Under the pieces are notes generated by a model. That model was given only the letters and a program-made list of their open reading frames with translations, was not told the DNA's origin and did no database searches. A stretch of 64,000 bases of DNA. Origin: an uncultured Pelagibacteraceae bacterium. GTDB lineage: Bacteria > Pseudomonadota > Alphaproteobacteria > Pelagibacterales > Pelagibacteraceae. The stretch covers positions 62,001 through 126,000 of the forward strand of contig CACLDE010000003.1 in the NCBI GenBank assembly GCA_902605645.1, given 5' to 3'. Below, in pieces: positions 46,440-48,662 of this stretch (positions are counted from its first letter, which is position 1; each line of letters opens with the position of its first letter). The position numbers and the translations under genes were made by a program.

Positions 46440-46468
46440 TTGACTTTCTAGTTTAGAATTATTATAAA
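46440..46468 (+). promoter_or_regulatory. Sigma-70 promoter of katG
   Basis: TTGACT (46440-46445), 17-base spacer, TATAAA (46463-46468). Predicted start near 46475, 16 bases before the katG ATG. The Irr box covers the spacer and the -10. Confidence 0.72.
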
Positions 46469-46471
46469 CTA
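46449..46471. promoter_or_regulatory. Irr box (iron control element) over the katG promoter
   Basis: A 23-base palindrome centred on 46460 with ten of eleven pairs matching. Its core at 46452-46468 is TTTAGAA-TTA-TTATAAA, against the known Irr consensus TTTAGAA-N3-TTCTAAA: one mismatch in 14 defined positions. It overlaps the -10 and most of the spacer, a position that predicts repression of katG by Irr. Confidence 0.75.
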
Positions 46472-46490
46472 AATAATACAATTAATTAGT

Positions 46491-48662
46491 ATGAGTGTAG
46501 AATTTAAAAAAAATGGAAATGGTAAATGCCCCGTGATGCATGGTGGCGTAACAAAAGCAGGCGAGTCAAATACTGCTCGACTATGGCCAAATAGTATAAA
46601 TTTAGATATTCTACATCAACACGATACCAAAACTAATCCTCTCCCAGGATTTAATTATAGAAAAGAAGTTAAAAAACTAAATTTTAAAGCTTTAAAAAAA
46701 GACCTATTAAAATTAATGACAGATAGTCAAGAGTGGTGGCCAGCAGATTTAGGAAGCTACACAGGCTTAATGGTAAGATTGACTTGGCATCAAGTAGGAA
46801 CTTACAGAGAATTTGATGGTAGACCAAATGTTGGTTCACATAGATTTTCTCCGCAAGACTCTTGGCCGGATAATACAAATTTAGATAAAGCAAGACGTCT
46901 GCTTTGGCCAATTAAAAGAAAATATGGAAATAAATTGAGTTGGTCAGACTTGATGGTATTAGCTGGAACTATGGCGTATGAAAAAGCTGGATTTAAAACA
47001 TTTGGTTTTTCATTTGGTAGAGAAGATATATGGGGACCTGAAAAAGATGTTTATTGGGGAAAAGAAACAGTTCCATTAGCTGTTAATAGATATGGTGACC
47101 CCCAAGACCGTTCTTCTCTTGAAGCCCCACTTGCAGCATCTCATTTTCAACTTGTTTATGTAAATCCGGAGGGCGTAGAGGGTAAACCAGATCCAATAAG
47201 GACAGCAATGGACGTTCGAGAAACGTTTGGTCGAATGGGAATGAACGATATTGAAACAGCAGCACTTACTGTTGGTGGTCACTCTATTGGAAGAGCTCAT
47301 GGTAATGGAGACCCAGCTAATTTAGGTCCAGAACCTGCAGGAGCTGACATTCACGAGCAAGGATTTGGATGGAACCAGAAAAATGGAACTGGAGTAAATC
47401 AAATTACCTCAGGCCTCGAAGGAGCTTGGACAACTAATCCTGATAAATGGGATCATCAGTACTTAGATCTTTTATTGAATTATGAGTGGGAAAGTAAAAA
47501 AAGCCCAGCAGGTGCATGGCAGTGGGAACCTATTAATCTTGAGGAAGAAAAAAAACCAGTTGATTTAGGCGATCCTGAAAAGAAAGCTAGATTAATGTTT
47601 ACTGATGCAGACATGGCAATGGCTATGGATCCAGAATACAGAAAGATTTCGGAAAGATTTTACAAAGATCCTAAGTTTTTTGAGGATTCATTTGCTCGTG
47701 CTTGGTTTAAGTTAACGCATAGAACAATGGGAAATAAAGAAAACTACATTGGTCCTTGGGCTCCTAAAGAAGATCTTCTCTGGCAAGGGAATGTTTTTTC
47801 CCCAAAAAAGAAATACAATGTAGAAAAAGTAAAAAAAATGATCTTGGCTAGTAAACTTAGCTCTAGTGATTTAATAACTACTGCCTGGGATAGTGCTAGA
47901 ACTTATAGAGTAACTGATAAAAGGGGAGGCGCCAATGGTGCGAGAATTCGCTTAGCGCCCATGAAGGACTGGGAAGCCAATGAGCCTAACAAACTCTCAA
48001 AAATACTAAAAATCTTAGAAGCTATAGCAAAAAAAACTGGGGCAACAGTCGCCGATACAATTATTCTTGCAGGAAATGTAGGGCTAGAAAAAGCAATTAA
48101 AAAAGCTGGTTTTAAAGTGAAGGTTCCATTTAATCCAGGTAGAGGGGACTCATCTCAAAAACAAACTGAGATTAAGAATTTTAAGTGGCTAGAACCTTTG
48201 CACGATGGATTTAGAAATTATGTAAAATCAGATTACTCTGTAATGCCAGAAGAACTAATATTAGAACGTGCTTCTTTGATGGGTCTGACTGCTCAGGAAA
48301 TGACTTGTCTAGTGGGTGGTATGAGAGTGTTAGGAACGAACCATGAGTCCGCTAAAGACAAAGGTGTTTTAACTGACAAAGTTGGAGCTTTAACAAATGA
48401 CTTTTTCATTAATTTGGTCGATATGAAATACACTTGGAAGCCAACAGGTAAAAACTCTTACGATATTATTGATCGTAAAACAAAAAAAGTTAAGTTTACT
48501 GCATCCAGAGCAGATTTAGTTTTCGGCTCTAATTCAATACTTCGATCTTATTCTGAGGTATATGCTCAAGATGATAATAAAGAAAAATTTGTCAAAGATT
48601 TTATTAATGTATGGACAAAGATAATGAATGCGGACAGACCGAATTTGAAAAAATTAAATTGA
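46491..48662 (+). CDS. katG: KatG, bifunctional catalase-peroxidase
   Basis: Heme enzyme degrading hydrogen peroxide, 723 residues in two homologous domains. Distal R96, W99 and H100 lie in [11 protein letters not shown]. The catalase-specific crosslink partners are W99, Y223 (QLVYVNPEG) and M249 (FGRMGMND). Proximal H264 is in [10 protein letters not shown]. All key residues are present. It has its own promoter with an Irr box, suggesting that expression is linked to iron or heme. From memory, katG is missing from the best-known Pelagibacter genomes, so its presence may mark a different clade. A small DUF2061 gene follows one base later. Confidence 0.97.

Follow-up and report, generated by a model that had tools for sequence, protein, structure and literature searches.

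A predicted Irr operator beside an exchangeable peroxide-scavenger gene in SAR11 bacteria

Introduction

Marine surveys regularly find SAR11 bacteria to be more abundant than any other group (PMC2864753). In the SAR11 DNA considered here, a gene for a Fur-family regulator of the Irr type is the immediate upstream neighbor of katG, which encodes a catalase-peroxidase, and an imperfect palindrome covers part of the predicted promoter between them. This arrangement raises two questions: whether the palindrome is an operator of Irr, and which signal would release the gene behind it. A preliminary description had proposed that katG is kept silent when heme is scarce and is released when heme is available. 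If the reading given below holds, the locus would be one self-contained circuit (regulator, operator and scavenger) for peroxide handling in cells with few regulators.

The DNA analyzed, termed the window, is a stretch of 64,000 nucleotides in contig C3 of an 811,744-base, 27-contig assembly that is 72% complete. Its relatives among named genomes (best 80 of 507 named loci) are Pelagibacteraceae (SAR11), and the nearest Irr among them is 93% identical. A search of the open-access literature found no paper on this SAR11 locus or on a conserved operator with an exchangeable scavenger there; a 2006 reconstruction of alphaproteobacterial iron regulons (PLoS Comput Biol 2:e163), which lies outside that scope, may already note the irr-rubrerythrin pair or the SAR11 box.

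The irr-katG locus

The irr gene (46010-46429, forward strand) encodes a regulator of 139 amino acids with three consecutive histidines at residues 95-97. On its left, fabA (45427-45933, reverse strand; NCBIfam fabA 255.1 bits, above cut-off) is transcribed divergently. On its right, a gap of 61 bases leads to katG (46491-48662, forward strand), which encodes 723 amino acids and matches NCBIfam PRK15061 (1025.9 bits) and TIGR00198 (1018.2 bits), both above cut-off. It is followed by a gene for a small DUF2061 membrane protein of 81 amino acids (48664-48909, forward strand; Pfam PF09834 29.2 bits, above cut-off) and then by a gene for an SH3-domain protein (48912-49343, reverse strand; Pfam SH3_4 80 bits).

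The irr-katG gap contains a predicted forward-strand promoter, with a -35 hexamer TTGACT (46440-46445) and a -10 hexamer TATAAA (46463-46468) separated by 17 bases. The 23-mer TAGTTTAGAATTATTATAAACTA at 46449-46471 covers the spacer and the -10 hexamer, which lies within its right arm, and 10 of its 11 palindrome pairs match. The coordinates and the pairing thus bear out what had first been described here, a palindrome over the -10 and spacer of such a promoter with irr immediately upstream.

The palindrome by itself is within chance for DNA of this kind. The 64-kb window has three 23-mers in which 10 or more of the 11 pairs match, compared to 1 to 8 in windows simulated with a first-order Markov model (n=10), and bare palindrome statistics were therefore rejected as evidence. 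The Irr-box pattern TTTAGAA-N3-TTNTAAA is present at the promoter as an exact TTTAGAATTATTATAAA; for the classical Irr-box (ICE) consensus we assume the form used in the preliminary description. Exact TTTAGAANNNTTATAAA occurs once in the whole 811,744-base assembly, at this box. Since the palindrome alone is within chance, the case for the box rests on its conservation among relatives.

Conservation of the box downstream of irr

Across 147 family genomes, 87 places scored at least 128 bits and were taken as Irr; all 87 loci were read. The next matches, which include the genome's own Fur-like gene, score at most 38 bits. One locus whose contig ends at irr (L112) was left out of all downstream counts, leaving 86 gaps 3′ of irr, and in these the pattern TTTAGAAYNRTTMTAAA was scored in either orientation. 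It is found with no mismatch in 69 gaps, with one in 12 and with two in 5. This means that 81 of 86 gaps carry the box within one mismatch, compared to 0.1% of dinucleotide shuffles, and all 86 carry it within two, compared to 0.9%. The comparison of this gap among relatives that the preliminary description had called for thus finds a box of the palindrome type kept throughout.

Across 81 distinct aligned rows, 15 of the 17 core columns reach at least 1.5 bits, although the rows were registered on the best match, which favors the core. The TA pairs that complete the 23-mer reach 1.1 to 1.6 bits, and most other flanking columns stay below 0.7, with the -35 region and a few others higher. The left arm, TTTAGAA, lies within the promoter spacer, and its seven columns stand at 1.5 to 2 bits.

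A second sample, the best 80 of 507 named loci, includes 61 loci whose irr DNA has no exact counterpart in the first sample. Here the box is within one mismatch in 78 loci, has two mismatches in one and four in another. The last of these (L227, AG-461-B21) has both irr and a katG of lineage B (see below) with a degraded box, and is a candidate for a recent swap or a loss of control.

The gap on the other side of irr, between fabA and irr (45934-46009), also bears on this question. Many relatives carry AGTTTAGAATNATTATAAA there, where the window has TAGTTAGAATTATAAAGTA, a decayed remnant of an irr-promoter box. The box is present within two mismatches in this gap in 54 of 87 loci; the window is not among them, and 27 loci with katG of lineage A have at least three mismatches. 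Autoregulation of irr is likely in the relatives. As the box has decayed in the window, in its five nearest relatives and in 21 loci of genus g2, autoregulation may be weak or lost in these lineages.

The box and the presence of irr

If the box is an Irr operator, it would be expected to follow irr. Among the family genomes, 31 have a katG match without an irr-katG pair, of which 20 were read and 11 were not. Twelve irr-less genomes have katG at another place, and no box is found upstream of it (4 to 6 mismatches). In the other eight, katG abuts fabA and irr is gone; the box has no mismatch in one, two mismatches in two, three in two and five in three. The single intact box (G006) is, by its context, the old irr-promoter box.

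These eight genomes (L256-L263), without irr between fabA and katG, amount to natural cases of regulator loss. In one of them (G130, C7:12900-15600), reading of the DNA reveals what appears to be a broken start of irr before katG.

The box is therefore within one mismatch in 81 of 86 loci with irr, compared to 1 of 20 katG upstream regions without it, and within two mismatches in 86 of 86 compared to 3 of 20. A Fisher test gives p 1.8e-15, a figure that treats relatives as independent and is descriptive only. On the KatG tree there are only three independent pairs on well-supported branches (seven on all branches), too few for significance; a mean of 2.8 of the three run in the expected direction (p 0.25). 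That the box is kept with irr and lost without it suggests that the box tracks Irr.

The earlier proposal of an Irr-type operator at the katG promoter has thus gained support from three sides: the box is conserved with irr, among irr-less genomes, 19 of 20 regions upstream of katG have it degraded or lack it, and the same box stands before irr itself in 54 of 87 relatives. The identity of 46449-46471 as a putative Irr box is well supported by these comparisons.

The exchangeable scavenger slot

The gene that follows irr is not always katG. It is katG in 65 of the 86 loci and a gene for rubrerythrin (rbr) in 21, with exactly one of the two in each locus. By identity to the window's KatG, the katG genes fall into lineages A (at least 89%; 41 loci, the window's own class), B (68-69%; 3 loci) and C (51-56%; 21 loci). 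The second sample has katG of lineage A in 50 loci, B in 9 and C in 14, and rbr in 7 (best 80 of 507 named loci). No katG match is found in the 21 rbr-type genomes, and no short rubrerythrin of at least 97 bits in the 65 katG-type genomes; some of the latter have faint matches to the rubrerythrin family, of 19 to 35 bits, at other places. The presence of KatG in SAR11 genomes, and of rubrerythrin in a few, is already in print (PMC11366302).

The surroundings of this slot are stable. In the best 80 of 507 named loci, fabA-irr on the left is common to all, the SH3-domain gene on the right is found in 77 and is out of view in three, and a MoeB-like gene, so named by reading, is in view in 73. A DUF2061 match accompanies 60 of the 73 named katG loci in this sample; of the other 13, three end early and ten (nine katG-C and one katG-B) have none though the next flank gene is in view. 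Within the same best 80 of 507, DUF2061 is found with katG of all three lineages and with none of the seven rbr loci, so this gene is perhaps part of a katG cassette.

The slot appears to have changed hands several times. On the best Irr tree the four slot states need at least 10 changes, on few columns and with many unresolved forks; well-supported branches alone force 3, 2, 3 and 3 changes for A, B, C and rbr taken singly. KatG of lineage A keeps 90-97% identity to the window's KatG even in loci where the identity of Irr drops to 55-59%, and it groups with the katG of four Irr-less genomes that have no box. On these grounds, the sequences are most simply explained if katG entered the slot laterally.

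The promoter pattern TTGAC-N16..18-TATAW is present in 71 of 86 gaps, and the 15 loci without it are 14 of katG-A and one of katG-B. A half-site adjoins the -35 on its 5′ side in 16 of the 21 rbr loci and in 9 of the 21 katG-C loci. Scored in the katG orientation, 6 of 21 rbr loci offer no better box than one with 3 or 4 mismatches, and in several rbr loci (L105, L106, L111 and L113) the conserved box lies 5′ of the -35 instead, while the box at the -10 is degenerate.

Loci outside SAR11 bear on which occupant came first. Among 142 genomes sampled across the class, 84 places of at least 74 bits are listed outside the window's own genome, and 69 of them were read. An rbr gene lies downstream of irr in 51 of these 69 loci, in 49 of them within 327 bases; it is further off in L266 and L273, L300 has a distant rbr, and in two of the 69 loci the sequence stops no more than 201 bases from irr. 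The stretches read 3′ of irr contained no katG at any of these loci. The irr-rbr pair is therefore probably ancestral, with katG swapped into a fixed slot. Like the SAR11 locus, these pairs have a scavenger behind irr, and the box is within two mismatches in 29 of the 51 irr-rbr gaps and not in the other 22; fully symmetric TTTAGAATCATTCTAAA and TTTAGAATAATTCTAAA occur in two of them (L268 and L316). Unlike these pairs, katG in the slot is seen only in SAR11 in the present comparison. Because irr-rbr pairs are common outside SAR11, they point to peroxide defense as an old role of Irr.

The SAR11 rbr protein, at about 138 amino acids, is too short for a rubredoxin domain. In this it resembles ferriperoxin (Fpx), a single-domain rubrerythrin of aerobes that reduces H2O2 (PMC3317640). 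Unlike Fpx, the SAR11 rbr product is a predicted scavenger, and it scores 136.4 bits with the NCBIfam rubrerythrin profile, below the cut-off of 200.

Ten genomes of genus g5 without an Irr match (G005, G019, G028, G037, G045, G053, G059, G071, G076 and G085) have an open reading frame of 318-335 amino acids with a rubrerythrin domain. This is the size of MbfA, which is an established target of Irr elsewhere.

The conserved operator with its exchangeable peroxide scavenger is a predicted feature that reaches beyond the coordinates at which it was first noticed. That the box beside irr has been kept while the scavenger gene was exchanged several times suggests that Irr mainly controls peroxide defense in SAR11. 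As KatG and rubrerythrin would stand under the same control in different lineages, their iron cost and peroxide capacity could be weighed against each other at this locus.

The Irr protein and its signal

The window's protein ranks as Irr. Its NCBIfam scores are 143.6 bits for IrrA (cut-off 150) and 131.4 bits for Irr (cut-off 170), both under cut-off, and the next profile is PerRB at 69.6 bits; by this ranking, Irr and IrrA stand above the other Fur-family profiles. Its residues H40, D89, H95, H97 and D108 align with H37, D85, H91, H93 and D104 of PerR (PDB 2fe3; PerR numbering as in PMC4700492), and all five ligands of the PerR type are found in 87 of 87 SAR11 Irr proteins. The histidine cluster is similarly constant, with H95 and H97 in all 87 and position 96 being H in 86 and Y in one. 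No protein of the 87 has the Cys-Pro pair of the heme regulatory motif, as in B. japonicum. Each has 0 to 3 cysteines, and a structural zinc site of the PerR type, which needs four, is absent from all 87.

Two characterized systems are close enough for comparison. Like the Irr/ICE system of Rhizobiales and Rhodobacter, the SAR11 locus combines an Irr-family protein with a TTTAGAA-N3-TTNTAAA box at a promoter; unlike that system, its apparent targets are katG or rbr, 13 of 14 zero-mismatch sites in 14 genomes lie at the irr locus, and Cys-Pro occurs in none of 87 proteins. Like Bacillus PerR, SAR11 Irr has the same five regulatory-site residues, stands as a putative repressor beside a peroxide scavenger and has a similar operator, judged by the PerR consensus that we assume. 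Unlike PerR, it scores as Irr (143.6 compared to 69.6 bits) and has too few cysteines for the zinc site.

A mechanism can be proposed on this basis. An Irr dimer on the operator at 46449-46471 would cover the -10 and spacer, block RNA polymerase and so repress the adjoining peroxide-scavenger gene. Heme- or iron-loaded Irr, oxidized by peroxide, would let go, as PerR does and, with heme, the Irr of Bradyrhizobium, which would make the scavenger locally peroxide-inducible. The slot behind irr would have held an ancestral single-domain rubrerythrin, which katG genes of three lineages replaced in SAR11 on several occasions while the box was either retained or restored. The box, its conservation, its link to irr, the slot swaps and the ligand set are apparent at the level of sequence. 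Binding and repression by Irr at the box we regard as very probable, whereas peroxide as the releasing signal stands at even or slightly better. The explanation in its entirety, operator, exchangeable slot and peroxide release together, has in our judgment an even chance of being right.

A peroxide-released repressor is favored because the five ligands of the PerR type are invariant across the 87 Irr proteins. It has been reported (PMC4700492) that B. japonicum Irr has the same five named residues, and that heme-bound Irr makes and activates H2O2 and oxidizes the histidine that matches PerR His37. The same study states that heme-free B. japonicum Irr is not oxidized by H2O2 and that the heme regulatory motif, which the SAR11 proteins lack, is the main source of H2O2. 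In R. sphaeroides, loss of irr raises peroxide resistance, and the catalase rise in the irr mutant was judged indirect (PMC3413700). These data from relatives are compatible with a putative peroxide-released repressor in SAR11.

The strongest competitor is heme supply, in which Irr builds up under heme shortage and shuts katG down; a heme enzyme would then be made only with heme, and peroxide would have no direct part. KatG is a heme enzyme, which suits this reading. B. japonicum Irr is degraded on heme binding (PMC4700492). R. sphaeroides Irr binds the mbfA promoter, mbfA rises in the irr mutant, and the protein binds heme without a heme regulatory motif (PMC3413700); Cys-Pro is for this last reason not treated as required for Irr. 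Against heme supply, the same slot and box serve the non-heme rubrerythrin in 21 of 86 SAR11 loci, and beyond SAR11 rbr lies downstream of irr in 51 of the 69 loci that were read. A non-heme enzyme in the slot, together with five ligands and no Cys-Pro, makes peroxide at least as likely a signal as heme supply.

Expression data touch on the same point. Heme supply predicts lower expression on iron limitation, yet the rbr mRNA of Ca. P. ubique (SAR11_0399) stood 1.57-fold higher in iron-limited cells at 24 h (P 0.025; PMC2864753 Table 1), and in the same study the Irr protein showed no significant change under iron limitation. The rise is weak evidence, as R. sphaeroides mbfA, a gene with an Irr box, shares a rise of about 1.5-fold on iron limitation (PMC3413700). 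The HTCC1062-like genome G026 has one rubrerythrin match, which adjoins irr, and we infer that the Ca. P. ubique rbr sits in the irr slot. In sulfur-limited stationary cells, rbr mRNA fell to 0.17-fold and its protein rose 2.24-fold (PMC5069961). One metaproteome contained SAR11 rubrerythrin both during the day and at night (PMC8707726), which gives no sign of light-driven induction. Both this presence at all hours and the shared rise of mbfA weaken the case for peroxide over heme.

Heme scarcity is a possible main silencer, and we consider heme supply as a full account rather unlikely. The claim that katG is silent when heme is scarce and released by heme is thus not supported, given rbr in 21 of 86 slots, the five ligands in 87 of 87 proteins, the missing Cys-Pro and the weak evidence from rbr mRNA.

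Other readings of the box

A different Fur-family protein (Fur/Mur, Zur, or a PerR in the unsequenced part) might bind the box, with Irr a mere neighbor. The core does resemble Fur-family sites, and the box is presumably one change from the Bacillus PerR box. The assembly, being only 72% complete, has two more Fur-family genes, which by reading of translations lie beside a miaB-like gene and zinc-transport-like genes. Yet the box is lost in 7 of the 8 irr-deleted genomes, though a weaker, Fur-level match remains in at least five of them (G001, G049, G073, G077 and G130), so the box does not follow Fur; it also lies on both sides of irr in many relatives. Another binding protein is therefore very unlikely.

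It is highly improbable that Irr activates katG or only sets a basal level without repressing it. The title of one paper places the iron control element of Bradyrhizobium in both positive and negative control, but the SAR11 box overlaps the -10, and the R. sphaeroides mbfA start lies within its Irr box, which was read as repression (PMC3413700). That the conserved sequence is only an AT-rich promoter with an incidental palindrome, as chance palindromes of such quality in the window and the -10 within the right arm might suggest, is extremely improbable when the left arm in the spacer keeps seven columns at 1.5 to 2 bits and the box is missing at two mismatches from 17 of 20 katG upstream regions without irr.

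Sites elsewhere in the genome

If Irr acts as proposed, the extent of its regulon would be reflected in the distribution of boxes. The search of the genome for further sites gave a divided answer: the sole exact TTTAGAANNNTTATAAA is the one at irr-katG, while looser matches in the assembly (at most two mismatches) show no enrichment, with 102+113 compared to 147+126 for the reversed control.

Fourteen Irr-containing genomes have 14 zero-mismatch sites, 13 at the irr locus and one within a G003 open reading frame; no such site occurs in four of the 14 genomes (G010, G043, G063 and G078). Five Irr-less genomes have a single zero-mismatch site, inside an open reading frame. A tighter pattern at up to one mismatch gives 103 sites in the 14 genomes, compared to 132 for the reversed control, and 22 compared to 30 in the five Irr-less genomes, so that there is no enrichment in total. 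Singly, G000, G018, G026, G035, G051 and G078 exceed their own reversed controls. Thus strong sites appear confined to the irr locus in these 14 genomes, with weaker targets elsewhere possible.

A rival peroxide regulator was also sought. OxyR passes the NCBIfam cut-off in none of the 147 family genomes, with a best score of 45.2 bits in the window's assembly, though this is a weak test that only 1 of 14 control genomes passes.

A bolder reading may be drawn from these patterns, which we hold tentatively and think somewhat more apt to be wrong than right. SAR11 Irr would be a PerR-type peroxide sensor and no longer a global heme regulator. Its regulon would have shrunk to one scavenger (plus irr itself in many relatives), the slot would be a place where rubrerythrin and three kinds of katG, differing in origin, replace one another while the operator stays the same, and loss of irr would leave that operator to decay.

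Of 20 regions read around listed sites that lie away from irr, 17 have the site inside an open reading frame. Two of the in-gene sites recur in the same gene of a second genome (G027 and G075; G003 and G078). The three non-genic sites are a gene junction in the window's assembly (L145), one site in G018 and a pair in G026. The G018 site (L157, G018:C10:7170-10190, at 1500-1516) is TTTAGAATTATTTTAAA, 64 bases before an open reading frame resembling a transporter solute-binding protein, and is the one lone intergenic site of the 20 regions. The pair in the HTCC1062-like genome (L162, G026:C1:74700-77800, at about 1468 and 1597) is formed by TTTAGAATTATTCTAAT repeated at an interval of 129 bases, within a 1.3-kb stretch devoid of genes.
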